From Ruania alkalisoli (GTDB taxonomy: Bacteria; Actinomycetota; Actinomycetes; Actinomycetales; Beutenbergiaceae): a stretch of 64,000 bases of DNA. The position numbers and the translations under genes were made by a program. Location of the stretch: NCBI RefSeq assembly GCF_014960965.1, contig NZ_CP063169.1:591581-655580 (forward strand), given 5' to 3'. Below are positions 1,914-43,288 of this stretch, piece by piece; position 1 is the first letter of the stretch, and each line of letters starts with the position of its first letter. The notes beneath the pieces are model-generated. The model saw only the letters and a program-made list of their open reading frames with translations, searched no databases and had not been told where the DNA came from.

Positions 1914-4900
1914 ATGCGTCGCCTTGCCACCTCCGCGATCGGTCTGGCACTCGCTGCAGGCTTGGTTGTGGGCGCTCTCACTCCTGCCGCGGCTGCCGAC
2001 CCGCTCGACGATGTCGAGGGCGCCGGTACAGCTGACTCGCCGTATCTCATCGAGACGGCAGCCGAGTTCGTGGCGGTGGCCGATCAGATCAATACCGGCG
2101 ACGCCGCCTGGATCGATACTCATCTTGAACTCACCGCGAATCTCGACTTCGCTGGGCAGGAGTTCGGTGGCATCGACCGGTTCACCGGTGTGCTCGACGG
2201 AGCCGGGCACAGCATCCGCGACATCGTCTACGGACCGGGCGCGACGAGCAGCGAGTTGGGTCTCTTCCGTGAACTCGATGCCGCCGTCGTGCACGACCTC
2301 ACCCTCGACGGCGTCAGTGCGCAGACCACGGCGGACACACGCGTCGCCGGCATCGCCGTCGTGGCCACGGGCGGAACCCGCATCGAACGCAATGCGATCC
2401 TCGACGCCACGCTCGTGTCCGGGCATCAGTACACGGCGGGTATCACCACGAACGCACAGGACGGCGTCAGTATCGTCGACAACGCGATCGAGGGAGTCTT
2501 CGACTCCGCGCGGTACCCGAGCGCAGTGGTGGGGTATGGGCGTTACGACGTCCAGATCGAACGCAACCTCGTCGACGCCACCGTCGTCTCGGGTGGGTCG
2601 CGTGCCCACGGCGCGATGCTGCTCGGATACGCCGGTGCCTACTCGGACACCTCGAAACCTGAGGTGGAGATCCTCGACAACGTCCTGATCGGGGGCGAGG
2701 TGACCTACCGCGGGGGAGACAGCGGCATCGATCCTGCCCGGGTCGCCGGAGTCATCCGGAGCCCCGGAGTGGTGGCCGAACGCAACCTGGCTGCCGTCTC
2801 CATCCTCGTCGCTGGTGAACGCCCGGAGGCGCCCGGTGAGCTGAACCGCCAGGGCGAGGACGCCACCGCGGAGGAACTACGCCGTCAGGCCACATATGAA
2901 GGGCTTGGCTGGGCCTTCCCTGGCACCTGGCGGTGGGACCAGGATCGCGAAGGACCAGTGCCTTCGCTCTCCGGGACCGGTGCAGACCTGCCCGAACCCG
3001 AGCCGCTGCCCGAACCCGAGCCCGGGGAGGAGCTCACGGGCGTGGACGGACGAGGTACCGAGGCCGACCCCTATCAGATCGCCGATGCCGATGACCTGAT
3101 TGCCATCACCGAGGCAATCAACGGCGACATGGCCACCTACGGCGGCGCGCATGTGCGCCTCACCGCGAATATCGACTTCGGCGGTGGCGTGTTCGCTGGC
3201 ATCGACCACTTCAGCGGTGTACTCGACGGAGCAGGTCACAAGATCTTCAGTATCGGCGACTACGCCGTCCGCGACAACGCGAACGGCGAGCCTCAGCGCG
3301 GCTTCATCCACACGCTGAATGGAGGCACTGTCCGTGACCTCACTATCGATGGACTCCGCGTGACCGACCGTGGGAACGTCCGCGTGGCGGGAATCGCGCT
3401 CGATGCGGTGAACGGCGCCGTGCTCGACGGCAACTCGGTCCTCGATGCCACCCTCATCTCCGGCAGCCAGTACGCGGCAGCGATCGCTGCCAAGGCCGAG
3501 GGTGCCGTCGTCACCGACAACTGGGTCACGGGAACCTACGACAGCGCCCGTTACCCCGCCGCTGTCGTCGGCTACGCCCGGCACGGTTCCGAGATCAGCA
3601 GGAATCTGATCGACGCCACCGTCGTCTCGGGTGGGGCACGTGCACACGGTGCCATGGTGGTTGCCTACCAGGGTGGCGGCAGCGTGGTCGGAACAACCCG
3701 GATCACCGACAATGTGCTCTACGACGGCGAGGTCACCTACCGCGGTGGGCGCACGGCGATCGCACCCGGCCGGGTAGTCGCCATTCACCGCGCTGACGGA
3801 TTCGAGGTCGAGAACAACCTCGCGCGGGAGACGATCCTGGTCGCCGGAGAACTGCCGGACGCCCCCGGGGAGCGCAATATGCACGGCACCGATACCAGCG
3901 CCGCACAACTCGCCCAGCAGGCAACCTATGAGGGGCTCGGCTGGGACTTCTCCGGCCAGTGGACGTGGGACGTGTCCCGCGGTCACCCCGTGCCCGACCG
4001 CGAATACCTCCTGGGCGCCGGTACACGCGAGGTTCCCTTCGAGATCCGCAGCCCCGCTGACCTGCAGATGCTCGCCGATGGCCTCAATGGAGGCGACGCC
4101 ACTCTTGAAGGCGACCGGCAGTTCACCCTCACCAGCGACCTCGACTTCTCCGGTCAGGACCCCTTCACTGGAATCGACCGTTTCGAGGGCGTGCTCGATG
4201 GTCGAGGTCATACCATCACCGGTCTTCGATACGCCCCGAGCGGAGCGCACGACTCGCTCGGACTGGTGCGGACGCTCACAGGAACCATCCGGAACATGCA
4301 GTTCGACGATCTGGTCGTCGGCGACAGCACCGAGCCCGTCGCGGCTGTCGCGGTGCACGCTGCGGGTACAGCCTCTCAGCGTGCCCTCATCGAGATGATC
4401 TCCGTCGACGTCACCGTCGACGCCCCGTCCTCCCCGCTGGCGGGCGGACTCGTGGCCACGGCAGAGAACGCGGACGTGACCTTCAACGAGGTCGACGCCA
4501 CGGTCGCGGCTGAGACTGCAGCGGCGGCCGTGGCCCGGGCCGATGATGGTGCCCTGATCTCGACCCTCCTCGTTCACGGAGAGGTGACCGCAACCGAGGC
4601 GTCCGGCCTCGTGGTCGCCACCGTGCAGGCGGGCGCCGAGGTGACCCGGAACATCGTGCTCGGTCGCGCCGTCACCGATGCCGGCGGTGGTCGCGTGCTC
4701 GGTGACGTCAGTGCAGATGGCTGGGACGCCGCTGAGAACCTGGCGAACGTCGAGACCACGGTCGGTGGCGAGACTGTCACGGGCCCCGGTGAGCGCGGAC
4801 GGCACGGGATCGACGTCAGCGCCGAGGATCTCGCTCTTCGTAGCACCTACGACGAGATCGGCTGGAGCTTCGTGGAGCATTGGCGGTGGGATCCGGAGAC

Positions 4901-7900
4901 GGGCACCGCGTCGATCAAGCACACAGCACCCGAGGAGCTCCCGAACCGCATCACGACGACCTTCCATGGCGACCCCAGTACGCAGCGCGGCTTCTCGTGG
5001 TACCAGACCGTGGACACCGATGACGCGGCCGTGCTGCTCAGCACCGACCCCTCGTTCCCCGTTGGGGAGTCGACCTTCCAGGTCACGGCAGACCAGGCGA
5101 CGACGCGCCACGACGAGTTGCACTACTCGGCGGTCGCCCACGGCCTCGTGCCCGGCAACACGTACTACTACCGCGTCGGCGACTCTCTCACCGGGGTCTG
5201 GAGCGCCACCGGCGAGTTCGTGACTCCGACGTCGGGGAGTGAGGACTTCACCTTCATCGACCTGACCGACACTCAGGCCAAGGCCGAAGAGGAAGCGGCG
5301 TTGGCCGCCACGACGCTGCGCCACGCTCTGGCGACCGTGCCCGAGGCCGAGTTCATGGTGCACAACGGCGACGTGGTGCAGGACGGTCATATCGAGGACG
5401 ACTGGTCCGACATGCTCGGTGCCGCGCAGGACAGCCTGCTCGCCACCACCATCGCCCCAGCCGCCGGCAACCATGAAGACCGGAACAACTCCTTCGTCGA
5501 CCACTTCACGCTGGAGGCCCCGAACGGTCAGAGCACCGAGACCGGCGCCTACTACGCCTACCGCTACCAGGGCGCTCACTTCATGGTTCTCAACACCAAC
5601 GAGGATCCCGAGGAAGGGATCTCCGACGATCAGCTCCGCTGGCTGCGCGAGGAGGCACAGGCGGCACGCACAGACGGAGCCGACTGGTTGTTGCTCGTCA
5701 TGCACAAGGGTCTGTACACGGCAGGCACTCATGCGACCGATGCCGACGTCCACGCGATGCGCGAGAAGTTGGTGCCGGTGATCGATGAGATCGGGATCGA
5801 CCTCGTGTTCCAGGGCCACGATCACTACATGTCGCGCACTGAGGTGCTTCGCCACGATCCTGATGGCGCGGCGTTTGCAAGCCCGGTGGAGGCCTCGGTC
5901 ATCACCGAGATCGTCGACGGGCACCGGTTCGAGTACACCGTCGATCCGGACGGGACGCTCTACTTCATGCCCAATACAGCGGGCGCCAAGCACTACGCGC
6001 AGATCGCCGAGGCGGAGATCTTCGACCTGGAGTCCTATCTCCGGCTCTTCGACCGACTCGGTACGCCGCGTGCCGGCACGGCCGAGACCTTCACCGCGGT
6101 CGACGTCACTGAGGAGCGGTTGACTGTCGAGGTGTACAACATCACCGATGGGGGCCAGCCGCGGCTCTCCGAAGGGTTCGGTATCGACCGTCAGCTGACC
6201 GGTGTCGAGCAAATGATCGAGGGCCTGCCTGCCGCCGAGAGCCTCAGCCTCGACGACCAGGTGCTTGTCGAGGCAGCGAGAGAGGGTGTCGCCGCCCTCA
6301 CCAGCGGCCAGCGGGATGCGCTCGACCTCGCGCGACTGGAGGCTGCAGAACTGAGGTTGCGTGAGCTGCGCGGGCTCGTCTCCACCGATGGCATCACCCT
6401 GGCGTGGGCTGACCCCGAGGCGACCGCGCGCGAGCCGATCACCGTCCGCAACGAGACTGCGCGTGAGTTCCGTGATGTACCCGTGCGGCTGACCCTCGCC
6501 GACAGCCCCGGCGTCACCGGGGACGAACTCGCCTTCGCCGCCGCGGACGGCGCCTTGCTCGATTATGAGGTCGAGCACTGGAACCCGGGTGGCTCCAGCA
6601 CCGTCTGGGTGCGGATGCCGCGACTAGCGGCTGGCTCGATCACTGTGCTGTGGGCCTACTACGGCGGCGGCGATGAGGGCAACGACCCCGCCGAGGTATG
6701 GAACGCCGACTACGCACTCGTCGAGCACTTCGACGAGGCCACGACGGCTGGCCAGACCCGGGTCGACTCCACCGGGCAGCACACCGGCACCCTCTTCGGG
6801 GCCGATCTGAGTGTGGAGGCGACCGCGGGTGGGGCGCTCGCGAGCCGCTTCGAGGGGTCCCTCCTGCAGTACCCGGGCAACGTAGGAGGGGGGCACCAGA
6901 CCATCTCCGTGAGCGGGATCTACTCGTTCACCGACGAGGACGTCCTCGCGGGCGGCCAGGACGGCACGATCGTCGCCAAAGAGGACCCGGCTGGCGGCAC
7001 GCCGTCGGCGTTCCTGCAACGCCTGAGCGGGGGAGAGGGGGCGGTGCGGACGACCCTGGGCTCCTCGGAGTTCATGGCCGCCGTTCCGGCCGACGGCGAA
7101 CCGCACCTGGTCACCCAGCTCTATGACGGCATGACCTACGCGGTGTTCGTCGACGGCGTGCAGCAGTACGAGACGATGGCCGAACGCCGGCCGACGCGAA
7201 GCGACTTCGGCGTCCTGACAACCATCGGTGCGCTATCGGCAGAGGGCGACTCGCTCGTCGCGCCGTTCCAAGGCACCATCGAGGAGGTGCAGATCGCGAG
7301 CGCTCCCGTCCTGCCCGAATTCGAGCAGTTCCGGTATGCGAACTACTTCGGAGACGCCGTCCGCTACGGCGAACGCACCGAGCGCTCGCAGGACGGGCTG
7401 TCCCTGATCGCTGATAGCGCCGCCCCGGATGCTGAGATCGAGGCGGGGCTCGTCCCGATCACCGGTGCGCTCTCCCACGGAGCCGAGATCACGGCCACCG
7501 TCGGAGATCGCATCGTCTTCCAGGAGACCGTCGACGCGGGCGCCTTCACGCTCGACGTGCCGGTCCACCTGCCCGGTGATCAGAATGTCTCGTTGGTGGC
7601 GGCCCTCGGTGACGACGCGGCTGAAGCCACCGTTTCCCTCAGCGTGACCGACAGGGTGGCTCCGGAACAGCCTGAGGTGGACACCGAGCGGGTCGATTCC
7701 GCCGCGGACCAGGTACGCCTGAGCGCCACGCCGCTCAGCGACGGTCGTGAGCCCGTTGAGGCACGCTTCTTCATGAACGAGGCGATAGACCTGACCGAGG
7801 CGAACGTGAGTGTGCGTACCGGAGCCACCGAAGACCGGGTGCCCACGTCACTGACACCCGAGTCCGGCGAGGCGGCTGAAGACCTCCTACCGGAGACAGT

Positions 7901-9632
7901 CGGCGAGGATGCGAATCCCTACCAGATTTACTCCATCGCGCTGACCCCAGAGCAGGCAGAGGAGGAGACATTCCATCTCACCTGGACCGGAACCGGCGAC
8001 GACCGTCGCATCTCCGCCTGGGTCTGGGACCACACGGCCGGGAGCTGGTTGGTCAAGGACAGTGATGCGGACATCTCCGGAGGTGAGGTCTCGCTGGACA
8101 TCACCGCCCTAGCGAAAGAGAACGCTGTCGGGCCCGAGGCTGAGCTCCAGTTGCTGATCTGGCGAGGTCTCGTGGCTGAGCCGTTCGGAGACCGTGTACA
8201 CGAGCAATACCCGGACCGGGCCGATTTCGACTGGGGCTTCAGCCACGTGCCGGACACCCAGCTCTACGCCGAGTCCACACCGTGGATGATGACCGAGATG
8301 TTCGAGCACCTCGTCGACAACGCCGACGAACGCCAAACCGAGCTCGTGATCCATGCCGGTGACTGGGTCAACCGTGAGTACCTGCGGGACGAGTACCAGT
8401 GGCGCGACGCGGAACCATCAGCCCGTGCACTCGAGGAGGCCGGCATCCCGCTGATGGTCTCGTGGGGCAACCACGACTACTCCGAGGACCGCAACGGTCG
8501 CCTGATGCTCGAGCAGTATTTCCCGATGTCCCGATTCCAGGAAAACGTCGAGGACACTCCCTTCACCTTCGGCGGGCACTACGACATCGACAACTATTAC
8601 TACACGGCCGAGATCGAGGGGGCGCCGTTGTTGTTCCTCGCGCTCAGCTACTGGTCGGCGAACACCGACGACGACCCCGGGATCCAGTGGGCGAGGGAAG
8701 CCATCGAAGCACATCCGGATCACACGGTGATCCTGGCCACGCACGACTACATGTTCGCCCGTGACGCGAGCGACCCGTACACCAACCCGCGGATCAACGA
8801 TCAACTCGTCGATCCTTATCCGAACGTGGCGCTTGTGCTTGCCGGTCATAACTCCGGAAGCTACGTGGCTGCTCGGGAGACCGATCACGGCACCACCTCC
8901 TACGGTCTGCTCACCGACTACCAGACGCGCCCCTGGGGTGGCCACGAGTTCTACAAAAACCTCAGTGTGGATGCGGAGAACGGTCTTCTGTACGTGAACA
9001 CGTACTCGCCGTGGCTGGACTCATGGACCTCGGACGGGCGTTGGCATTCCCCCATCTCCTCGGAGAACGTGCCCGGGTTCCACGGTGACGACTCGGAGAA
9101 CTTCGTCCTCGAGCTCGACCTCGGTGGAACAGGCGATGACCGTACTCTCGGCGCCCTCGGGCTCACCCTGGACGTCGGCGCACCGATACCAGTGGGTGAG
9201 GCGCAGACGGTTGTCGGCACAGATACTGCGGACGTCATCGTCGCTGATCTGGCACCGCAGGCCCGGCACTCGTGGTTCGCCGAGGTGACAGATGCTGCGG
9301 GGAACGTGACGCGCAGTGTCACCACGGTGTTCTCGCTGGCGGCTCTGTCGGAGCCGACCCCAGATCCGGAACCCACTGAGCCGGGCGACCCGGGCGACGG
9401 GCAGGATGGCACCGACCCCGGTGATGGGCAGGGTGGCGCAGACCCGGGTGATGGGCAGGGTGGCGCAGACCCCGGTGATGGCGGGCAGACGGACGGCTCC
9501 GGTTCGGACGGTGAACTCTCCGAGACCGGGACCGGCTTGCCGATGCTTCTCTGCCTCGTTGCCCTGGGCTTGCTCGTGAGCGGGGCCGCAGTGCTGATGA
9601 TCAGACGACACCGGCGGCCTGGTCAGGGCTGA
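1914..9632 (+). CDS. Giant secreted wall-anchored protein with two metallophosphatase domains
   Basis: Predicted surface phosphoesterase of 2,572 residues. ATG 1914 is chosen because GGAG lies 6 nt upstream and a signal peptide (MRRLATSAIG..., cleavage after TPAAAA) begins there; the frame is open further upstream to 1785. Order of parts: three beta-helix/GLUG-like repeats (residues about 36-1000), a fibronectin-like purple-acid-phosphatase N-domain (about 1005-1105), metallophosphatase 1 (about 1110-1310: DLTDTQ, NGDVVQDG, GNHED, MHKG, GHDHY), a DUF2341-like sandwich (about 1490-1590), a LamG-like domain (about 1600-1815), Ig-like spacer, metallophosphatase 2 (about 2110-2320: PDTQ, AGDW, GNHDY, THDY, AGHN), a 9-residue DPGDGQGGA linker repeat, and the sorting tail LSETG (2535-2539)-hydrophobic-RRHRR. 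Substrate unknown. Domain calls are by eye. Confidence 0.85.
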   Translation: MRRLATSAIGLALAAGLVVGALTPAAAADPLDDVEGAGTADSPYLIETAAEFVAVADQINTGDAAWIDTHLELTANLDFAGQEFGGIDRFTGVLDGAGHSIRDIVYGPGATSSELGLFRELDAAVVHDLTLDGVSAQTTADTRVAGIAVVATGGTRIERNAILDATLVSGHQYTAGITTNAQDGVSIVDNAIEGVFDSARYPSAVVGYGRYDVQIERNLVDATVVSGGSRAHGAMLLGYAGAYSDTSKPEVEILDNVLIGGEVTYRGGDSGIDPARVAGVIRSPGVVAERNLAAVSILVAGERPEAPGELNRQGEDATAEELRRQATYEGLGWAFPGTWRWDQDREGPVPSLSGTGADLPEPEPLPEPEPGEELTGVDGRGTEADPYQIADADDLIAITEAINGDMATYGGAHVRLTANIDFGGGVFAGIDHFSGVLDGAGHKIFSIGDYAVRDNANGEPQRGFIHTLNGGTVRDLTIDGLRVTDRGNVRVAGIALDAVNGAVLDGNSVLDATLISGSQYAAAIAAKAEGAVVTDNWVTGTYDSARYPAAVVGYARHGSEISRNLIDATVVSGGARAHGAMVVAYQGGGSVVGTTRITDNVLYDGEVTYRGGRTAIAPGRVVAIHRADGFEVENNLARETILVAGELPDAPGERNMHGTDTSAAQLAQQATYEGLGWDFSGQWTWDVSRGHPVPDREYLLGAGTREVPFEIRSPADLQMLADGLNGGDATLEGDRQFTLTSDLDFSGQDPFTGIDRFEGVLDGRGHTITGLRYAPSGAHDSLGLVRTLTGTIRNMQFDDLVVGDSTEPVAAVAVHAAGTASQRALIEMISVDVTVDAPSSPLAGGLVATAENADVTFNEVDATVAAETAAAAVARADDGALISTLLVHGEVTATEASGLVVATVQAGAEVTRNIVLGRAVTDAGGGRVLGDVSADGWDAAENLANVETTVGGETVTGPGERGRHGIDVSAEDLALRSTYDEIGWSFVEHWRWDPETGTASIKHTAPEELPNRITTTFHGDPSTQRGFSWYQTVDTDDAAVLLSTDPSFPVGESTFQVTADQATTRHDELHYSAVAHGLVPGNTYYYRVGDSLTGVWSATGEFVTPTSGSEDFTFIDLTDTQAKAEEEAALAATTLRHALATVPEAEFMVHNGDVVQDGHIEDDWSDMLGAAQDSLLATTIAPAAGNHEDRNNSFVDHFTLEAPNGQSTETGAYYAYRYQGAHFMVLNTNEDPEEGISDDQLRWLREEAQAARTDGADWLLLVMHKGLYTAGTHATDADVHAMREKLVPVIDEIGIDLVFQGHDHYMSRTEVLRHDPDGAAFASPVEASVITEIVDGHRFEYTVDPDGTLYFMPNTAGAKHYAQIAEAEIFDLESYLRLFDRLGTPRAGTAETFTAVDVTEERLTVEVYNITDGGQPRLSEGFGIDRQLTGVEQMIEGLPAAESLSLDDQVLVEAAREGVAALTSGQRDALDLARLEAAELRLRELRGLVSTDGITLAWADPEATAREPITVRNETAREFRDVPVRLTLADSPGVTGDELAFAAADGALLDYEVEHWNPGGSSTVWVRMPRLAAGSITVLWAYYGGGDEGNDPAEVWNADYALVEHFDEATTAGQTRVDSTGQHTGTLFGADLSVEATAGGALASRFEGSLLQYPGNVGGGHQTISVSGIYSFTDEDVLAGGQDGTIVAKEDPAGGTPSAFLQRLSGGEGAVRTTLGSSEFMAAVPADGEPHLVTQLYDGMTYAVFVDGVQQYETMAERRPTRSDFGVLTTIGALSAEGDSLVAPFQGTIEEVQIASAPVLPEFEQFRYANYFGDAVRYGERTERSQDGLSLIADSAAPDAEIEAGLVPITGALSHGAEITATVGDRIVFQETVDAGAFTLDVPVHLPGDQNVSLVAALGDDAAEATVSLSVTDRVAPEQPEVDTERVDSAADQVRLSATPLSDGREPVEARFFMNEAIDLTEANVSVRTGATEDRVPTSLTPESGEAAEDLLPETVGEDANPYQIYSIALTPEQAEEETFHLTWTGTGDDRRISAWVWDHTAGSWLVKDSDADISGGEVSLDITALAKENAVGPEAELQLLIWRGLVAEPFGDRVHEQYPDRADFDWGFSHVPDTQLYAESTPWMMTEMFEHLVDNADERQTELVIHAGDWVNREYLRDEYQWRDAEPSARALEEAGIPLMVSWGNHDYSEDRNGRLMLEQYFPMSRFQENVEDTPFTFGGHYDIDNYYYTAEIEGAPLLFLALSYWSANTDDDPGIQWAREAIEAHPDHTVILATHDYMFARDASDPYTNPRINDQLVDPYPNVALVLAGHNSGSYVAARETDHGTTSYGLLTDYQTRPWGGHEFYKNLSVDAENGLLYVNTYSPWLDSWTSDGRWHSPISSENVPGFHGDDSENFVLELDLGGTGDDRTLGALGLTLDVGAPIPVGEAQTVVGTDTADVIVADLAPQARHSWFAEVTDAAGNVTRSVTTVFSLAALSEPTPDPEPTEPGDPGDGQDGTDPGDGQGGADPGDGQGGADPGDGGQTDGSGSDGELSETGTGLPMLLCLVALGLLVSGAAVLMIRRHRRPGQG
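2019..4900 (+). repeat. Three tandem roughly 1-kb coding repeats (beta-helix/GLUG-like) in the giant phosphatase
   Basis: Units start near 2019, 3048 and 4013. Each opens with G-x-GT-(4)-P-(Y/F)-x-I and then has L-T-(A/S)-(N/D)-(I/L)-DF, GID-(R/H)-F-x-GVLDG-x-GH. Units 1 and 2 also share the VSGG-(S/A)-RAHGAM and EVTYRGG segments and a YEGLGW-(A/D)-F end; unit 3 is more divergent. Confidence 0.8.
9387..9488 (+). repeat. 27-bp tandem repeat encoding the DPGDGQGGA wall-spanning linker
   Basis: Units begin at 9387, 9414, 9441 and 9468 (the last partial) and encode DPGDGQDGT, DPGDGQGGA, DPGDGQGGA and DPGDGGQ. They sit just before the sorting signal, where flexible Pro/Gly linkers span the cell wall. 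Units 2 and 3 are nearly identical in DNA, so copy number may vary between strains. Confidence 0.85.
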
Positions 9633-19728: not shown

Positions 19729-21019
19729 GGCGGTGTCAGACGATGAGTGCACTGTGCTGGTCGTGTGGATGGGGTTGCTGTGGTTCGGGTGTTGTCGTGG
19801 GAGTTCAGGGTTGAGGCGCTGTCCAGGGTCGAGGATGGTGAGGCGTTGGCGTCGGTGGCACGACGGATGGGGTTCAACAAGGAAACTCTCAGGGATTGGG
19901 TGGCCGAGTATGGGTACCGGTTCCGCTCGGGCCGTCACGGGGGCGGGGCTCGCCCTCGGGTCGAGTTCGCTGATGGCTGGCAGACTCGGCCGGTGGTGCA
20001 CACAGGTCATGGACGCCGGTTGGATATCTACCATCGAACGCTGATCGAGGTGTATCGGGCCCAGGGCAAGACTCATGCCCAGATCGCTGGGCTGGTGGGC
20101 TGCTCGGCCTCGACGATCACTCGCGAGATCAACAAGCATCGAACCGCTGGCGGGCACTATTTCGCCCGCCGCGCCCAGGTGGGGGCGGATCGGCTCAAGC
20201 GGCGCCCCAAGATGGCGAAGCTGGAGCAGAACACCCACCTGCGCCGGGTCGTGGTGGAGTGCTTGAATAAGCACTTCTCCCCGGGACAGGTAGTTTTGCA
20301 CCTGCGGCGCCACTACCTCGACCGTGAGGACATGCGAGTGTCACACGAGACGATCTATCAAGCACTGTATGTGCAGGGGCGCGGCAGTCTGCGCGAGGAG
20401 ATCCGGCGCGAGAAGGCCCTACGAACCGGCCGGACGACGCGGATCCCGCGATCACGGCTCACCACGGGCCGCACCCGCAGTTGGGTGGAGGGCTGTCATA
20501 TCTCGACCCGACCCGCTGAGGCGGCCGACCGGGCCGTTCCCGGGCATTGGGAGGGTGATCTCGTGCTCGGGGCCAAGAACCAGTCCGCGATCATCACCCT
20601 GGTCGAACGTGCTTCACGCTTCACCTTGATCCGGCGTCTTCCTGCCGATCACCTCACCGGAACCGTCACCGCAGAACTCGTCGCGATGATGAGCTCACTA
20701 CCGCAAGCCCTGCGTAAGAGCCTGACCTGGGACCAAGGCGATGAACTCGCTCGACACCGCGACTTCACGATAGCCACCAACATGGCGGTCTACTTCTGCG
20801 ACCCGCACTCACCATGGCAGCGTGGCACCAACGAGAACACGAACGGCCTGATCCGGGAGTTCTTCCCCAAAGGCATCAACTTCCGCACCGTCTTTGACGC
20901 CGACATCCACACCGCCCAGGACCTCCTCAACATCCGACCCCGCGCGACCCTCGACGGGATGACACCGGCAGAGAAACTCGACCAACTCATCACCAGTGCA
21001 CTCACCACTTGACACCGCC
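19729..21019 (+). mobile_element. Complete IS30-family insertion sequence, 1,291 bp
   Basis: Ends are inverted repeats: GGCGGTGTCA then ATGAGTGCACTG at the left, and GGCGGTGTCA then GTGAGTGCACTG on the complementary right end. Flanked by a 4-bp direct repeat CATA (19725-19728 and 21020-21023). Contains one intact transposase gene. The element seems recent: both ends, the duplication and the gene are undamaged. Confidence 0.93.
19747..21012 (+). CDS. IS30-family DDE transposase
   Basis: 421 residues if read from GTG 19747; a GTG start some 35 nt later (VVRVLSWEF) is also possible. The N-terminus has a helix-turn-helix (HAQIAGLVGCSASTITREI). The integrase core shows the DDE triad: Asp in GHWEGDLVLG, Asp in LTWDQGDE and Glu in QRGTNENTNGLIREFFPKG, all typical of IS30. 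The gene fills the element and its stop lies 7 nt inside the right inverted repeat end. No frameshift is seen, so it is probably active. Confidence 0.95.
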   Translation: MHCAGRVDGVAVVRVLSWEFRVEALSRVEDGEALASVARRMGFNKETLRDWVAEYGYRFRSGRHGGGARPRVEFADGWQTRPVVHTGHGRRLDIYHRTLIEVYRAQGKTHAQIAGLVGCSASTITREINKHRTAGGHYFARRAQVGADRLKRRPKMAKLEQNTHLRRVVVECLNKHFSPGQVVLHLRRHYLDREDMRVSHETIYQALYVQGRGSLREEIRREKALRTGRTTRIPRSRLTTGRTRSWVEGCHISTRPAEAADRAVPGHWEGDLVLGAKNQSAIITLVERASRFTLIRRLPADHLTGTVTAELVAMMSSLPQALRKSLTWDQGDELARHRDFTIATNMAVYFCDPHSPWQRGTNENTNGLIREFFPKGINFRTVFDADIHTAQDLLNIRPRATLDGMTPAEKLDQLITSALTT

Positions 21020-35798: not shown

Positions 35799-36085
35799 CG
35801 CGGCCTCCGTGTGACGCGATGGGCATGCAGCAGCGTGCGCATCACCCCGGCTGATTGCCTTACCACGGAGATGTCATGTTCGTCACATCCGAGGGTCGTC
35901 CCCGGAGCGTGAATCGTGGCGTTTAGCCCGCAATCGTGCGGGTCAGCGCGCCTCGCGGCCGCTGCTGCCACCTTCCCTCGCTGGTAGTTGAACGAATGAG
36001 AAGTCGTGTGACGCTGTCCTTAACTCCTGCCCAGCCAGTCAATCGGGCGGGGCATTCCACACTCTCCGGGGGAAGGTCCATCACT
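35799..36085. other. Intergenic stretch before the giant adhesin
   Basis: Apart from the duplication remnant at its left end, no gene, repeat or clear promoter box is visible here. The adhesin frame is open through 35936-36085 but without coding character. Confidence 0.5.
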
Positions 36086-39000
36086 GTGCTGCGCGCAACG
36101 AACTCGCCACACCGAGGTATCCGACGGGTGCTCGCGAGCGCCCTTGCGCTCCTACTGACCGGCGGTGCGGTGATCGCCGGAACGACGCCCGCCGTCGCGG
36201 ACGTCGGCGATCCGCAATACCTGACCGTCGACAAGCGCGTCAGTGCGGACGAGATCTCCGTAGATGAGCCGTTCACCTACACGATCGAAGTGAACTGCTC
36301 CGAGGCGACCTGCCTCGAGGCGCACCTGCAGGACCAGTTCCCGGCAGAGCTGGATGGCTACGCCCTGCAGAACGTGACCATCACCCCGTCTTCGTCCGCC
36401 GTGCCGCGGGACGTCACGTGGACCGTCGACGGAGCCGAGACCTCACAGCCGAGCGTGCTGACCGATGACACGGTGCTCGACATCCACTTCCAGCAGGAGG
36501 GCACCAACCCCGAGGGGACTGGACTCGAGTTCGGCACCCGCGTGAGCGTCAGCATCACCCTCCAGGCACCGGAGAAGGCCCCGGGCGAGTACGCGTTCAC
36601 CAACACCGCCACCACCGAGGCGTCCAACTCCAACCCGGATTCCTCCGACGCCACCACCACGCTGATGGTCCCGTCCGTGCTCGACGTCGACGTCACCAAG
36701 GACTGGGCTCCTGCTGAGGAGACCTTCACCCCCGGCGCCGAGTCCACCATCAGCCTCGGCGTGACGAACACATCCAACGGCCCGGTCGAAACCCTCACCA
36801 TCCAGGAGCCGCAGAACGCTCCCGACGGCGCCACCTCCCTCGACCCCAGCAACCCGTTCACCCTCACCGACCTCGCCGGACCCGACGGCTTCTCCGCGAC
36901 CATGCCCCCCGGTGCCGAGCAGGCGCAGGTGGACGTGTACGTGCTGCAGTCCGACGGCAGCTACGGCTGGGAGACCGGTACGCCCGACGCCACCCCCGCG
37001 CTGCCCGTCGGCGTCGACCCCGGTGACGTCGCCGGTATCCGGATCACCTACACCGGTGCGGCGATCGAACGGCAGGCGAGCTCCGCCGTCGAGCTGGACC
37101 TCGCCCTGCGCGAGACCCACCGCGACACCGGCGACGACCTCTCCGTGGCCACGCACACAGTGGACAACACCACGGTCGGAAGCGCCGCCGTCGCCGATCG
37201 TGACCCGGCCACCGCTACCGCCGACGCCAGCTACACGGTGACCCCGCCGGCCCTGGGTGTGGAGACCAGCAAGAACATCAGCCCGAACCGGATCGCCGCT
37301 GGTGACAGCGCCGAGGCCACCCTCACCGGGACAAACGCCTCCGACATCCCGGTGGCCGAACTGCGTCTGGCCGACCTCGACTACTTCACCGCCGACCTCA
37401 CCTTCGATGGCTTCACGGCGGCACCCAGCTGGCCGGCGGGCGCCACCGGCGCCGAGGTGATCTACCACCCGCTTGACGGTTCCGACCCGGTCAGCATCCC
37501 GTTCGCTGACGGCGAGACACCTGCCGCGCCGGCCGAGCCGATCTCTGGCTTCGAGCTGGTGTTCACAGCCGACGCACCCGGGATCGAGCCGGCTGCGAGC
37601 ACGAGCGCCGACTTCGTGATCGGCTCGACCGAGGCTGCCGTCAGCACCGGTGAGACGCTCCCCACCACGAACACCGTCGACACCAGCATCACCACGTTCA
37701 ACGACCGCACCGCCGAGGCGAGCGACGACGCGAACCTCACATTGGTGGCCCCGGCCGTCGAGGTCGAACTCACCAAGACGATCCGCCCGGGCGCCACCGT
37801 GCGCCCCGGTGAGGATGTCGTCACCGAACTGCGCTCGAACCTGACCACCACCTCGGATTACGTCACGGCCACTCAGATCGTGGTCGAGGACTCCCTCACC
37901 GGTGACGGCGGCTTCTGGGACGCCTTCAACGTCGACTCCGTGGCACCCACCCAGGTGCCGAGCAACACCGACCTGACCGTCGAGGTGCAGTTGCCCGACG
38001 GTAGCTGGACGTCCGTGGCCGTCTTCGACGCCCAGGCCGGTCCCTTCCTCGCCTCGCTCAGCCAGGCCGAGATCGCCGCCGCGCTCCCCGGCGGCGTGAC
38101 CACCGAGGACCTCACCGGCATCCGGTTCATCTTCGACAACGCCGACGGGTTCGCCGCCGACACCACCGTGACCCCCTACGTGGTCTCCACCGCACGCGAC
38201 GCGCTGCGCTCGGGCGGTGAGATCACCGAGGACGGTGTGGACGTGGAGAACCTCGCCACCACCACCGGTACGGGTGAGACCGAGGCGGGTACCCCGCTCA
38301 CCGACACGGATGAGGACGTCGACTCCGCCGGCGTCGCGCCCCAACCGGGCGGACCCGGACCCGGAGTCGGCATCGACAAGTCCTGGGACCGGGCCACCAT
38401 TCCGGCCCAGACCGACCAGCAGGCGGGTACCACCCTCTCCTGGCGTGTCTCGCCCGGATTCGAGCAGGTGGTCATCAGCGACCCCGCCGCGCCCGTGCCC
38501 GGCGATGTGTCCGACACCGTGTACGACACCTTCGACCTGGTCCAGCTCGACCCGATCGCCGGCAGTGACGAGCCGTACAGCAACGGCTGGTTCCTGAAGT
38601 ACGACACCATCACCGCCGTCGAGCTTTACGACGGCACCAGCTGGCAGACCGTGGCCGAGCCAGCGGACGGCTGGCAGTCGAACGGTGCCTTTGTGGGCTA
38701 CACCCTCACCACGGACGAGCGGGCCTCCACGGTGGCGATGCGGATCGTCCTCGAAGAGAACACCGCCGCCCGCGAGGCAGCGGCCACCGCCGGTGGTGCC
38801 TACGACCCGTACGCGCCGACCCCCGGCACCGGCGTGGCGACCAGCAGCGTCGACCGTACCTTCGACCAGACCTGGCGCCTGCGCGACCAGTTGCGCTCCG
38901 ACGGATCCTGGATCACCGATGAGGCGGTCTACAACGCCGGTGAATCCGGCGTGGTGGACAACACCACCAGCGTCACCGGCACGCCCATCGGCGGGGGCGA

Positions 39001-42000
39001 CCCCGTGACCGACAGCGACAACGCGGTGATCACCATCACCACCACGCCGCCGGGGGTGCAGGTCGGCAAGAGTGTGGATCCCACCAGCGAGCTATACGTG
39101 CCGATGGAAGGCACCACCGAGCCCGGTGACTACCCGACGGCGACGTTCACGCTCACCGCGCGTAACGACTCGGTGACCCCCGCCTCCTACGTGCGCCTCA
39201 TGGACCCGCCCGCATGCACCGATGCCGAGAGCATCTCCGTCTGCCAGAGCGAGGCGAGTGAGGCCGGTGCCCTCGCCGACCCGTTCACCGCCGACATCGA
39301 CTGGCTGCGGGAGGGGAGTCCGTTCGACCGGTTCAACCTGACCGGTCTCGACATCTCCGCCGGGATCGCCGACCAGGTGGATCTCGCCGAGAGCGTCGTG
39401 TGGCTGCTGCACGAGGACGGCACCACCAGCCAGGTCACGGCCGAGGAGGCCACCGCGCGCACCGCGCAGGAGCTGGCCGATGTGATCGGCCTGAGCGTGA
39501 CCTACGCCGGTGCAGATCTGGCGACGATCACCTCAGACAACACGCTCACCGTGGTGCTCGAGACCCAACTGCGCACCACCCTGCGGTCTACCGGTGAGCT
39601 CCAGGTGCTCTCGGCGAACGACCACCTGCAGATCCCGAACCGGGTATTCGCCCAGTCCTACGACCCGCTGCTCAACGACGGTGCACTCACCGGCGCCAAC
39701 GCGAGTGCCGCCGTCGGGCTCACCGGCGGGGACATCAACGTGGCCCCCTCCAAGTCGGTCTCCCCGGATGCGCTCACCGAGCCCACCCGAGACGAGCCGG
39801 TCACGGTCACCCTGGGGGCGGACCAGGGCACCGACCCGGTGAGCACGCTGGCACCGGCCGAGGTGCGCCTCACCGATGACGTCACGACGTCGCCGGACTT
39901 CTGGAACACCTTCAACCTCACCGGCCTCGGGGAGATCACTGCTCCCGACGGCGCAGACCAGGTCGCGATCGGGGTGTACGGACCGTTCGGTACCGACGGC
40001 GAGCTGGAGTGGGTGAGCGGCGCGCCTACCGGTATCGACACGGCCGCCCTGCCGGATGTGGACCTCACCGAGGTGCAGGGTGTCCGGTTCGCGTTCTCCC
40101 GCGCAGACGGCGAGTTCTTCTCCGACGATGTGCCGGCGCCGGGCTGGTCGGCCAACGCCGCGTTCACCGTGCAGCTGCGCGAGGACTACCGTGACTCCGG
40201 CGAGGCCGTGCAGCTCGAGGGAGAGGTGACCAACACCGTCACCGTCATCAGTGACCGGTTGAACGGAGAAAGCTCCGAGGCCAAGGCGACGGACGCCGTC
40301 GTGGGCCTGAGCGAAGGCACCGCCGAGCTCGAGGTGAACAAACTCGCCAACGACGGCAACCGCACGGCAACTGTGGGCGACCTGGTGCCGTGGGACCTGA
40401 CCGTGCACAACTCCGGAACCGGATACCTGGACCTCACCGAGGTGCGGGATGCACTCCCGGAGCACCTCGCCTACCTCGGCGACGAGCCCACCTACACCGC
40501 CGACGACGACGGCGCGCTCAGTGAGGACGTCACGCTGACCCAGGAGGGTGAGGAGCTGGTCTTCACCTGGCCCGAGGGTGAGAACCGGATGCTGCCGGGG
40601 GAGACGTTCACCATCCGGGTGCTGCTCGAACTTCAGCCGGGCCTGAGTTCCGGAGAACGCACCACGAACACGATGGTCGCCTCCACCGTTCAGACGCTGG
40701 AACGGTGCGAGAACGTCGTCTCCGGTGGGTCCACCACCGACGACTGGGCCGGTGATCCCACGACCTGTGGCGCCACCGACTACGTTCAGCCCGCCCAGGG
40801 GACCAACCTCTACACCCTCAAGGGTGTGCGCGGGGAGCTGGAGGGTGCGCACCACAGCTCCTCGGTGGACCGGCTGTGCGAGCCGACGCTGACGGCCACC
40901 GGCGGCGACTACTACCGCGCACCGTGTGCCGCCAACAGCGTGATCGGCGGGACCGACGACTGGGTGCTGCAGACCGTGAACGCCGGCACCACCGATATCA
41001 CCGAGATGGTGGTCTTCGACCAGCTACCCGTGGCCGGGGACCTCTCCCTGGTCGCGGGCAGCGACCGCGGCTCGGTGTACCGGCCGCAGCTGCTGGACAA
41101 CCTGCTGGTGACCGCCCCCGAGGGCACCGAGACCGTCATCGAGGTGACCACCAGCGACGACGTCTGCGTGGGCACCTGGTCGGAGGTCACCACGGCCGAG
41201 CCCTGCACCGCCAGCGGTGAGGAGTGGACTGAGCTGACCGACGGCACCGACCTCTCGCAGGTGTCCGGCCTGCGGATCTGGCTGGACTTCAGTGCCACGG
41301 CTGCGGGTGCTCTCGTGCCCGGACAGGGCGTGGACGTGACCTACTCCAGCGAGAACGTCCCGGCCACTGATGTCGATCCGAGCGGTGCCCCGGTGGACGT
41401 GCCGGTGACCGACACGTACGCGTGGAACCAGTTCGGGGTCAAGTACCAGGTGGCGGGCGAGGACCGCTACGAGAGGCTCGCACCGTCCCCCGTGGGCGTG
41501 CACCTGCGTACGGGCTCGCTCGAGGTGGTCAAGGACGTGACCGGCCCCGCTGCCGGCTACGCCGCGCAGGAGTTCCTGGCCGACCTGGTCTGCACCGTGC
41601 AAGGAGCGCCGCTCGACATGGGCGAGTACTCCACGCTGACCCTCATCGACGGTGAATCGGTCCGGGTGGACGGCATCCCACTCGGGTCAGAGTGCGTGGT
41701 CACCGAGCAGGGTGAGGTCGGCGAGTTCGGCGAGACCAGCCGGGAACCGGGTTCGGTCACCCTCGACATCACCGAGATGACCGGTACCGAGGACGAGGTT
41801 CCTGCTGCTCAGGTGGGCCAGCTCGGCAATGACTACCAGTACGCCGGCCTCAGCGTCACCAAGAATGTCGACACCCAGGCCACCTCCGGTGAGCTCGGAC
41901 CGTTCGACTTCACCCTGACGTGTACTACGGCACTGGGCGTTCCGGTCGACTTCGGCAACGGCGCGACGGAGCTCGCGTTCACGCTTGCCGACGGCGAGAC

Positions 42001-43288
42001 GTTCGACGCGCCGGCCGGCACTATTCCTGCTGGTTCCGACTGTGTGCTCACCGAAGCCGACGCCGCCCAGGACGAGGTGGTGATCGTCGGCACCAACGTC
42101 ACCGACAACGGCGACGGGTCGGCCACGATCGGCGTCGATGTCACCGGCGCCGAGGTCGAGGTGACCAACGGGTACGACGCGGGTGTGCTGTCGGTGACCA
42201 AGGTTGCCGAAGGAGACGGGGCCGACCTGTACGGCACCGGGCCGTTCGGTTTCGAGGCCGTCTGCACCTACGACGGGCAGACCCTGCTCGAGGAGTCCTT
42301 CGAACTCGCGGCCGGCGGGGAGCGCTCGTTCGGCACCTACCCGGCCGGCACCGAGTGCGTCGTCACCGAGACCGCGACCGGGGGAGCGAACGCCTCGGCG
42401 CTCGATCCTGCTGATGGTGTGGTCACCATCGCGGGCCCGGAGACCGACGACGAGAACGTGGGCACCGTGGGCGTGACCGCCACGAACACCTTCGTCCTCG
42501 GTGAGGTCGCCATCGAGAAGGTCGTCGATGGGCCGGGTGCTGAGCTCTATGGCGCCGGTCCGTTCACCGCGCAGGCGGTCTGTACCTGGGACCGCGACGG
42601 CGAGCAGGTGAGCGTCGAGCTGCCGAACGACGGTCTCATTCAGCTCAATGCTGCGAACGGTTACGCCGCCACCATCGGCGACCTGCTGGTGGGCACGGAG
42701 TGCGTAGTGACCGAGGTTGCCGACGGCGGAGCTACCGCAACGCAGATCCTCCCGGCCGACGGGGTGGTCACCGTGGGAGAAGAGACCGCTGTGGTCACAC
42801 TGACCAACACCTTCGACGTGACGTCACTGACGGTGACCAAGCAGATCGAGGGTGAGCCTGCCGGTGAGGCGAGCTTCGCCGTCACCCTGGTCTGTTCCTG
42901 GATGGTGGACGGCGAGGAACGCGACGTCGAGATCCCCGGTGGTGCAGTGCGTGAACTGCAGGCTCCAGATGACCTGACGGTCACCTACCAGGACCTGCCG
43001 ATCGGCGCCGACTGTGTGGTGAACGAGTCCGAGACCGGTGGTGCGGACGCGACCACGATCACCGTGACGGCCGCTGGTGAGGAGGTCACTACCGAGGGCG
43101 ACTCGGCTGAACTGACCACGCTCGCCGACGCCGGTACCACGGTCACGGTGACCAACGTCTTCGACCCGGAGCCGGGCGCCGGTGACCTGCCGGGCACGGG
43201 CACCGAACCGGTGTGGTGGATCGCCGGTGCGGCGCTGCTCATGCTGGCCGGAGGCATCCTGCTGGGGGTGCGACGGCGACAGATCTGA
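36086..43288 (+). CDS. Giant LPXTG-anchored adhesin-like protein with DUF5979 repeats
   Basis: About 2,400 residues. GTG 36086 is chosen: GGGGGAAGG lies 9 nt upstream and the product then starts with a signal peptide (HRGIRRVLASALALLLTGG, cleavage after TPAVA); ATG 35996 and GTG 35936 are in frame. The first 1,400 residues are repeated beta-sandwich modules with alternating V-x-(K/D) starts and NTV/TTV ends; a DUF11-like module (LEVNKLANDG...) follows, then five DUF5979-like domains from about 41510, each opening with V-x-K, carrying one Cys pair and closing with TN-(T/G/V)-(F/Y). Lys and Asn at these places suggest internal isopeptide bonds. Ends LPGTG (2368-2372), helix, RRRQI. Wall-attached adhesion or stalk role is inferred. 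Confidence 0.87.
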   Translation: MLRATNSPHRGIRRVLASALALLLTGGAVIAGTTPAVADVGDPQYLTVDKRVSADEISVDEPFTYTIEVNCSEATCLEAHLQDQFPAELDGYALQNVTITPSSSAVPRDVTWTVDGAETSQPSVLTDDTVLDIHFQQEGTNPEGTGLEFGTRVSVSITLQAPEKAPGEYAFTNTATTEASNSNPDSSDATTTLMVPSVLDVDVTKDWAPAEETFTPGAESTISLGVTNTSNGPVETLTIQEPQNAPDGATSLDPSNPFTLTDLAGPDGFSATMPPGAEQAQVDVYVLQSDGSYGWETGTPDATPALPVGVDPGDVAGIRITYTGAAIERQASSAVELDLALRETHRDTGDDLSVATHTVDNTTVGSAAVADRDPATATADASYTVTPPALGVETSKNISPNRIAAGDSAEATLTGTNASDIPVAELRLADLDYFTADLTFDGFTAAPSWPAGATGAEVIYHPLDGSDPVSIPFADGETPAAPAEPISGFELVFTADAPGIEPAASTSADFVIGSTEAAVSTGETLPTTNTVDTSITTFNDRTAEASDDANLTLVAPAVEVELTKTIRPGATVRPGEDVVTELRSNLTTTSDYVTATQIVVEDSLTGDGGFWDAFNVDSVAPTQVPSNTDLTVEVQLPDGSWTSVAVFDAQAGPFLASLSQAEIAAALPGGVTTEDLTGIRFIFDNADGFAADTTVTPYVVSTARDALRSGGEITEDGVDVENLATTTGTGETEAGTPLTDTDEDVDSAGVAPQPGGPGPGVGIDKSWDRATIPAQTDQQAGTTLSWRVSPGFEQVVISDPAAPVPGDVSDTVYDTFDLVQLDPIAGSDEPYSNGWFLKYDTITAVELYDGTSWQTVAEPADGWQSNGAFVGYTLTTDERASTVAMRIVLEENTAAREAAATAGGAYDPYAPTPGTGVATSSVDRTFDQTWRLRDQLRSDGSWITDEAVYNAGESGVVDNTTSVTGTPIGGGDPVTDSDNAVITITTTPPGVQVGKSVDPTSELYVPMEGTTEPGDYPTATFTLTARNDSVTPASYVRLMDPPACTDAESISVCQSEASEAGALADPFTADIDWLREGSPFDRFNLTGLDISAGIADQVDLAESVVWLLHEDGTTSQVTAEEATARTAQELADVIGLSVTYAGADLATITSDNTLTVVLETQLRTTLRSTGELQVLSANDHLQIPNRVFAQSYDPLLNDGALTGANASAAVGLTGGDINVAPSKSVSPDALTEPTRDEPVTVTLGADQGTDPVSTLAPAEVRLTDDVTTSPDFWNTFNLTGLGEITAPDGADQVAIGVYGPFGTDGELEWVSGAPTGIDTAALPDVDLTEVQGVRFAFSRADGEFFSDDVPAPGWSANAAFTVQLREDYRDSGEAVQLEGEVTNTVTVISDRLNGESSEAKATDAVVGLSEGTAELEVNKLANDGNRTATVGDLVPWDLTVHNSGTGYLDLTEVRDALPEHLAYLGDEPTYTADDDGALSEDVTLTQEGEELVFTWPEGENRMLPGETFTIRVLLELQPGLSSGERTTNTMVASTVQTLERCENVVSGGSTTDDWAGDPTTCGATDYVQPAQGTNLYTLKGVRGELEGAHHSSSVDRLCEPTLTATGGDYYRAPCAANSVIGGTDDWVLQTVNAGTTDITEMVVFDQLPVAGDLSLVAGSDRGSVYRPQLLDNLLVTAPEGTETVIEVTTSDDVCVGTWSEVTTAEPCTASGEEWTELTDGTDLSQVSGLRIWLDFSATAAGALVPGQGVDVTYSSENVPATDVDPSGAPVDVPVTDTYAWNQFGVKYQVAGEDRYERLAPSPVGVHLRTGSLEVVKDVTGPAAGYAAQEFLADLVCTVQGAPLDMGEYSTLTLIDGESVRVDGIPLGSECVVTEQGEVGEFGETSREPGSVTLDITEMTGTEDEVPAAQVGQLGNDYQYAGLSVTKNVDTQATSGELGPFDFTLTCTTALGVPVDFGNGATELAFTLADGETFDAPAGTIPAGSDCVLTEADAAQDEVVIVGTNVTDNGDGSATIGVDVTGAEVEVTNGYDAGVLSVTKVAEGDGADLYGTGPFGFEAVCTYDGQTLLEESFELAAGGERSFGTYPAGTECVVTETATGGANASALDPADGVVTIAGPETDDENVGTVGVTATNTFVLGEVAIEKVVDGPGAELYGAGPFTAQAVCTWDRDGEQVSVELPNDGLIQLNAANGYAATIGDLLVGTECVVTEVADGGATATQILPADGVVTVGEETAVVTLTNTFDVTSLTVTKQIEGEPAGEASFAVTLVCSWMVDGEERDVEIPGGAVRELQAPDDLTVTYQDLPIGADCVVNESETGGADATTITVTAAGEEVTTEGDSAELTTLADAGTTVTVTNVFDPEPGAGDLPGTGTEPVWWIAGAALLMLAGGILLGVRRRQI

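Follow-up and report, generated by a model that had tools for sequence, protein, structure and literature searches.

What does a surface protein gain from two calcineurin-type phosphoesterase domains of different kinds, placed far apart in one chain? The question is raised by a single gene of the soil actinobacterium Ruania alkalisoli, located at 1914-9632 (+) of the 64,000-nucleotide stretch of DNA analyzed here (the window). To our knowledge, few surface calcineurin-like phosphoesterases have been studied. A pair that is fused in two phyla, with one site consistently eroded, offers a test of two-step cutting of phosphate polymers and of enzyme versus clamp.

The gene and its domain organization

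The open reading frame encodes 2,572 amino acids from the ATG at 1914, and GGAG is found six bases ahead of this ATG, at 1904-1907. The longest in-frame ATG of the same frame, at 1785, would give 2,615 amino acids. Because the upstream gene encodes a P-type ATPase (truncated at the window edge) and the downstream gene is DAGK-like and on the opposite strand, the two-phosphatase gene appears to stand alone. Elsewhere in the window, a second giant frame of 2,450 amino acids at 35936-43288 (+) contains five DUF5979 stretches and is likely a surface protein; adjoining it at 43573-46362 (+) is a 929-amino-acid frame with F5/8 type C and Big_2 domains. An IS-like frame with an HTH and an rve integrase core lies at 19747-21012 (+).

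All features of the protein described here are encoded on the plus strand. A signal-peptide-like start, recognized by inspection (residues 1-28; 1914-1997), is followed by three repeats of about 320 residues, delimited by comparison of the units and by a profile of all three: unit 1 (residues 31-353; 2004-2972), which has a weak likeness to the Peptidase_M26 N region, unit 2 (residues 373-698; 3030-4007), and unit 3 (residues 701-1003; 4014-4922). Units 1 and 2 are 49% identical (E 1.7e-96), and unit 3 is 32% identical to unit 1 and 35% to unit 2; the Pfam M26_N match stays below its cut-off in the window protein. Next are the N-terminal, FN3-like domain of purple acid phosphatases (PAPs) (Pur_ac_phosph_N, PF16656, 52.7 bits, cut-off 30; residues 1010-1104; 4941-5225), the first calcineurin domain, D1 (5235-6188), and a linker that is helical by eye and aligns with its counterparts in homologs (about residues 1428-1520; 6195-6473). 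A DUF2341 domain (PF10102, 27.1 bits, cut-off 23.4; residues 1536-1611; 6519-6746) precedes a LamG/concanavalin-like region (residues 1709-1795; 7038-7298) in which Laminin_G_2 reaches 14.0 bits, below its cut-off of 22.9; in homolog L109, Laminin_G_3 reaches 32.4 bits, above its cut-off of 27.6. Beta-rich domains, seen as strands in the AF2 model (residues 1893-2095; 7590-8198), lead to the second calcineurin domain, D2 (8232-9008), after which come another beta-rich domain, recognized in the same way (residues 2389-2474; 9078-9335), a stalk rich in Pro, Gly and Asp, and a sortase-type anchor of LSETG, a hydrophobic stretch and an Arg tail (9516-9629). The anchor was recognized by inspection; the NCBIfam LAVTG model NF058582 gives 21.3 bits on this tail, below its cut-off of 27.

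The initial annotation had called this a surface protein, and the signal-peptide-like start and the LSETG tail, both read by inspection, bear that out. The DUF2341-like and LamG-like modules that it placed between the two phosphatase domains were also recovered, the latter below cut-off here and above it in L109.

Two calcineurin domains of different subtype

Pfam Metallophos (PF00149) matches the chain twice (82.7 bits, cut-off 21.5, best stretch 1135-1305), and a scan of the genome gave two calcineurin matches in this frame, at 53.1 and 44.8 bits, both above the Pfam cut-off. A domain search of the product therefore agrees with the initial annotation that both regions are metallophosphatase domains. 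Their spacing was also as described, with exactly 1,000 residues from one GNH motif to the other. In a global alignment, D1 and D2 agree in 71 of 262 columns (about 27% identity), and their nearest structures in Foldseek differ, so that the assignment to different subtypes likewise held. The possibility that the second domain is a chance match or a mis-call was ruled out by the genome scan, the motifs, the structure model and Foldseek.

D1 has the fold and the five metal-ligand motifs of the calcineurin superfamily (PF00149): D1119-T-Q1121, G-D1153, G-N1186-H1187, H1264 and G-H1302-D-H1304, with Gln at the His position of motif I (D-x-Q). Each of the 26 fused proteins compared has D-T-Q, GD, GNH, H and GHDH. 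The model is confident (pLDDT 94.4), and Foldseek leads to plant PAPs, with an E of 8.1e-25 and a TM of 0.77 by model for 3zk4. The description of D1 as PAP-like stands for its fold and its N-terminal PAP domain. It fails for the ligand that gives these enzymes their purple color: the tyrosine of GDxxY is present in 0 of 26 proteins, and Q, E or D takes its place in all 26, also in an alignment with kidney-bean PAP. D1 is very probably a working phosphoesterase.

The motifs of D2 are D2114-T-Q2116, G-D2150, G-N2186-H2187-D2188, H2277 and G-H2312. All 26 fused proteins compared share motifs I-IV (D-[T/S]-Q, GD, GNHD and H), and motif V of the window protein reads GHNSGS instead of GHxH (8844-8861; motif alignment). 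The last metal-site His, the second of GHxH, is missing in 26 of 29 fused proteins. It is retained in three (three of 26 in the earlier set), as GHDH; all three are from metagenome-assembled genomes (MAGs), two are near-copies of each other, and L072 and L109 are among them. GHxH is present in 28 of 35 unfused D2 relatives and lost in the other seven. Fisher's test of fused against unfused proteins gives p 1.5e-8 with kinship ignored, a value that is too strong because the rows are related; the D2 tree requires at least five changes of GHxH state.

Modeled with its flanks, D2 has a pLDDT of 90.7. The best Foldseek match is Lmo2642 (2xmo, E 3.9e-9), followed by mammalian PAPs and Rv0805. TM values are only 0.28-0.33 by model, because the model includes flanking domains that do not align, and 0.44-0.70 by target, the highest (0.70) for Rv0805. 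The superfamily signature is written DX[H/X]..GD..GNH[D/E]..H..GHX[H/X] (PMC3407115), and since X is permitted at the last His, D2 stays within the calcineurin superfamily, although it does not have the standard two-metal site. In LpxH, Asp8, His10, Asp41 and His197 bind metal 1, Asp41, Asn79, His114 and His195 bind metal 2, and the H10N change, which affects another metal-1 His, is described as abolishing Mn1 binding (PMC5016852). By homology to LpxH, D2 would keep all metal-2 ligands, and its metal 1 would retain two Asp residues, with Gln in place of one His and the last His gone. Of the two independent domains proposed initially, two folds are present; two independent active sites are doubtful, because 26 of 29 fused proteins are without the second His of GHxH. 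Structure prediction, suggested at that time for both active sites, gave confident domain models, with motif V of D2 departing from GHxH as described.

Distribution and evolution of the fused core

Other genomes share this architecture. An intact core of about 1,400 residues, corresponding to residues 1006-2409 of the window protein, is present in at least 29 proteins from Actinomycetota and, in MAGs only, Bacillota. This number is a lower bound and comprises the window protein, 25 loci from a scan of a genome collection with two short D1 patterns, and three proteins from a class sample. The scan returned 60 loci: 25 with the whole core, 34 with D1 and without D2 in the fetched stretch, and one (L108) cut by the contig end. 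Loci with D1 and without D2 are from Paenibacillus and other Bacillales. Because only two short D1 patterns were used, the scan misses members and is blind to D2 alone; the three class-sample members are absent from it. A search of the class sample with D2 found 4 of 394 genomes, including the window's own. Since 29 proteins carry the same core, the pairing is beyond chance, and 997-1,027 residues separate the two GNH motifs in all 26 proteins measured.

The hosts include Ruania, Georgenia, Oceanitalea, Flaviflexus, Promicromonospora and Isoptericola, as well as Nonomuraea, Spongiactinospora, Nocardioides, Actinophytocola and Microbacterium. Among named relatives, R. rhizosphaerae comes closest, with 93% identity across the core. 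The four Bacillota members (L072, L073, L107 and L109) are all on MAG contigs, and L072 and L073 are near-copies. The core is sporadic. Of the 8 genomes of the genus Ruania, 3 carry it; in the family the count is 4 of 24 and in the order 8 of 396, both including a split copy in G012, and in the phylum sample the window's own genome is the single one among 396. In the order and phylum samples the best two candidates per genome were scored. In G012 the core is split across two frames (L044 and L045), which were counted separately and not joined. LTDTQ, GNH and GHDH were not found by pattern in its D1 piece; its D2 piece has PDTQ, GD and GNHD, with GHIT at motif V. This is described as a decaying or divided copy.

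Fused proteins lie on one side of a branch in both phylogenies, with SH-aLRT support of 100 in the D2 tree (65 rows) and 99 in the D1 tree (59 of 96 rows); both trees were built quickly, with no bootstrap, and drew a program warning that long branches meet. A single fused group in each tree fits an origin of the pair by a single fusion. Of the 35 rows treated as unfused in the D2 tree, the entire frame was read in 15 (eight paralogue loci and seven refetched), none of which had a D1 match away from the D2 site; the other 20 were counted as unfused by frame length (336 to 1,428 amino acids), because all frames but one are shorter than the core of about 1,400 residues. The identities of five core segments co-vary (r 0.87-0.94, pairwise among 26 proteins). 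Families are intermixed in the trees, with Nonomuraea beside Promicromonospora, which suggests that the core may have been transferred. An origin in phages was considered and rejected: five phage records gave partial matches of below 60% identity, none spanning most of the core. Weak matches are found in Bacillus phage G gp352 (H17; D1, 24%) and in the fecal, phage-labelled MT835827 (H16; part of D2, 27%). Among plasmids, 44 records match the protein, none of them across more than 80% of it.

Between the window protein and L055, the one pair compared, dN/dS is lowest of seven segments in D2 (0.063) and D1 (0.083), rising to 0.11 in the repeats and the PAP N-terminal domain, 0.19-0.25 in the linkers and 0.42 at the C-terminus. 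For this pair, the value for D2 speaks against D2 being a decaying passenger. One to five copies of the N-terminal repeat of about 320 residues are found ahead of the core in 29 of 29 proteins. By eye, a protein of 2,055 amino acids (L009 3737-9901 (-)) begins in a PHP-like manner; a calcineurin domain and GLUG-like repeats follow. These repeats score 18.7 bits, below the cut-off of 20.5, and look similar to the N-terminal repeats of the window protein.

Variable tails

The C-terminal regions differ among relatives. A sortase-like LxTG tail was found by pattern in 9 of 26 proteins and by eye in two more, a CBM5/12-like Trp motif in seven of 26 by pattern (Pfam confirms CBM_5_12 in L061, the sole one scanned), GDWDG repeats in four of 26, and a dockerin (Pfam Dockerin_1) in L109. 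L062, L068 and L070 have none of these four kinds of tail, the three class-sample members have no evident anchor at the end, and contig ends truncate L056, L070 and L076 at the C-terminus. Relatives with CBM5/12 or a dockerin suggest that in some species the target may be foreign polysaccharide and not the wall of the cell itself. The docking on a glycan with removal of phosphate that the initial annotation envisaged is plausible, because relatives swap CBM5/12, dockerin and sortase-like tails and because ShfP and PhoD offer a precedent (PMC11488536).

Possible function

The explanation that we tentatively prefer, at somewhat below an even chance, is a secreted, wall-tethered, two-site phosphoesterase acting on extracellular phosphate-bearing material. 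D1 would be a working metal hydrolase, with D-x-Q, GD, GNH, H and GHDH all retained. D2 would be of the ShfP/YvnB type, with its metal-2 ligands intact and its metal-1 site one His short, and the modules between and around the two domains would keep them a constant distance apart at the cell surface. Most likely, D2 would engage a phosphodiester polymer, such as a teichoic-acid-like polyol phosphate or a phosphoglycan, by slow cutting or mere holding, while D1 takes phosphate off. Computation shows the fold, the state of the motifs, the conservation of the pair, the single fused group in either tree and the variability of the tails; catalysis, substrate and cooperation are inferred, with differing confidence. 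Catalysis by D1 is highly probable, catalysis by D2 could go either way, a polymer substrate is about evenly balanced, and cooperation of the two sites is somewhat doubtful. An extracellular polymer is the likeliest class of substrate because the docking modules vary. D1 is probably active, and D2, short of the last His yet strongly conserved, would be either an altered-metal enzyme or a clamp for phosphate polymers. Members with GHDH (L072 and L109) and those without it offer a natural comparison.

D2 could instead be a pseudo-phosphatase that binds phosphate or a phosphopolymer without catalysis and keeps D1 on its substrate, which is possible though rather doubtful. Loss of GHxH affects 26 of 29 fused proteins and 7 of 35 unfused ones and, because the motif I His is already Gln, metal 1 would be left, by homology to LpxH (as described in PMC5016852), with only Asp and Gln ligands. 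However, the retention of motifs I-IV in 26 of 26 proteins and the lowest dN/dS go beyond what a mere binding site would require, the signature as given in PMC3407115 tolerates X at the last His, and three fused members keep GHDH. Extended to the whole family, such a view would see an unnamed surface family of two phyla in which an old fusion fixed a register of about 1,000 residues, D2 became a one-metal or non-catalytic phosphopolymer clamp that makes D1 processive on a phosphate polymer, and interchangeable tails (sortase, chitin/cellulose-type CBM and dockerin) address different surfaces; we regard this combination as speculative and unlikely.

The two domains may also be unrelated activities that share secretion and anchoring and scavenge organic phosphate generally, without cooperation. 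Chains with doubled or tripled D1-like domains in Paenibacillus (L078 and L098) fit this idea of dosage rather than division of labor, but the order and the gap of about 1,000 residues are constant in 26 of 26 proteins and there is no clear PHO-box-like signal, and we consider it unlikely. The best upstream PHO-box-like pair failed to exceed the highest of 30 simple shuffles at 19 of 22 loci; it exceeded the shuffles by one step in L060 and L076 and by two in L062 (13 against 11), and the window scored 9 of 14 with no shuffles. The stretch scored runs from 400 bases ahead of the open frame's start, which is not a proven start codon, to 100 bases past it. An ecto-nucleotidase or phosphodiesterase for extracellular or cyclic nucleotides, wall-bound in the manner of YfkN, would have counterparts in the wall-anchored CpdB-like enzymes of Gram-positive bacteria, CdnP and SntA, described in PMC9958556, and Rv0805, one of the Foldseek matches of D2, is described as a cyclic-nucleotide phosphodiesterase. 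Such an enzyme is improbable here: Pfam finds no 5'-nucleotidase C-terminal domain up to E 1, and the CBM5/12 and dockerin tails of relatives suit polysaccharide better than a diffusible nucleotide. Glycan- or scaffold-type tails in relatives count in favor of the preferred two-site phosphoesterase, as do the precedents of ShfP and Rv2577. Against it weigh the missing metal-1 His of D2, the effects of H10N in LpxH and of H1114A/H1116A in ShfP, and the failure of neighboring genes, GH92 co-occurrence and upstream boxes to give a lead to the substrate.

When flanking ORFs, picked in a simple way, were compared all against all across 26 loci (25 plus G012), no group was common to more than five loci. 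The largest group comprises L060, L064, L073, L077 and L107; two groups of three and one of two are confined to Georgenia and Oceanitalea loci. Ten flanking genes that were scanned are of mixed kinds, including GH2 and GH30 enzymes beside L072. About 30 kb before the gene in the same genome, a protein at L010 2511-8087 (+) combines a GH92 alpha-mannosidase with a PAP_N and a calcineurin domain and has a sortase-like tail by eye; it prompted the idea of a phosphomannan substrate, which was not supported, as GH92 and the core do not occur together consistently within the genus. Of its 8 genomes, 4 have GH92 and 3 have the core; G003 has the core without GH92, and G004 and G006 have GH92 without the core, although these are few genomes. 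Another protein of this genome (L011 3872-8140 (-)) joins an NAGPA phosphodiester glycosidase to a calcineurin domain.

Comparison with known systems

The component parts of the protein are known, and the fused pair is new as far as found. The initial annotation knew of no described protein with this order, and no description of the fused pair was found in the open-access literature searched, though such searches can miss papers; a term search of the available text of the ShfP paper (PMC11488536) found no mention of two calcineurin domains. The core merits a family model of its own in annotation.

YfkN of Bacillus subtilis is reportedly a secreted phosphoesterase with several activities in one chain. 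Its domains are of the UshA/CpdB type. A putative sorting motif is described for it (PMC3222306). It thus resembles the window protein in being secreted, in carrying several activities in one chain and in its putative sorting motif, but the UshA/CpdB-type domain is not found in the window protein, and there is no Pfam match up to E 1 to the 5'-nucleotidase C-terminal domain of UshA, CpdB and YfkN. PhoD_N reaches 16 bits against a cut-off of 30, with no match to the PhoD catalytic domain up to E 1. In Paenibacillus, L078 6272-10372 (+) encodes 1,367 amino acids with two D1-like domains and an SLH-like tail by eye, and L098 6266-11791 (+) encodes 1,842 amino acids with three D1-like domains; unlike the window protein, all their domains are of one subtype, and D2 is not found in those loci.

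The plant PAPs (kidney bean 1kbp, lupin PPD1 3zk4 and wheat phytase 6git) share with D1 the fold, the N-terminal FN3-like domain and a profile match; they differ in the tyrosine ligand of GDxxY, which is replaced by Q, E or D in the D1 of all 26 proteins, and in motif I, which reads D-x-Q in D1. Rv2577, described as PAP_N plus MPP with both phosphatase and phosphodiesterase activity (PMC7642983), has the same two-domain unit as D1, but keeps GDxxY and consists of a single unit.

The closest studied protein to D2 is ShfP (YvnB) of B. subtilis, a probable kinship drawn from paralogues, motif spacing and the published description. ShfP has 1,289 amino acids with a lamin tail domain (LTD), seven Ig domains and one calcineurin domain (Updegrove 2024, PMC11488536). 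According to the same source, it is needed for release of signal and nutrient, strains with variants in the phosphoesterase site have glycerol as low as the shfP deletion, the authors suggest lipoteichoic acid as the glycerol source, and the radiation of surface calcineurin proteins is vast, with fusions to LamG, FN3 (Pur_ac_phosph_N), SLH and NAGPA. Both proteins are large and secreted and combine calcineurin with beta-sandwich domains. The window protein differs in having two catalytic domains instead of one with an LTD, to which it has no match up to E 1, and in the missing second His of D2; LTD-calcineurin paralogues (L013 and L038) are present in its own genome. H1114A/H1116A is among the changes of ShfP reported to fail partly or wholly to complement (PMC11188070); on our reading H1114 and H1116 would be its GHxH, and D2 would be without an equivalent of the second. 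Residue spacings are 36/34/83/34 in ShfP, as taken from the reported mutated positions, and 36/36/91/35 in D2. In the ShfP family the calcineurin domain is inserted in an Ig-like domain, and the model of D2 shows beta-rich regions on both sides.
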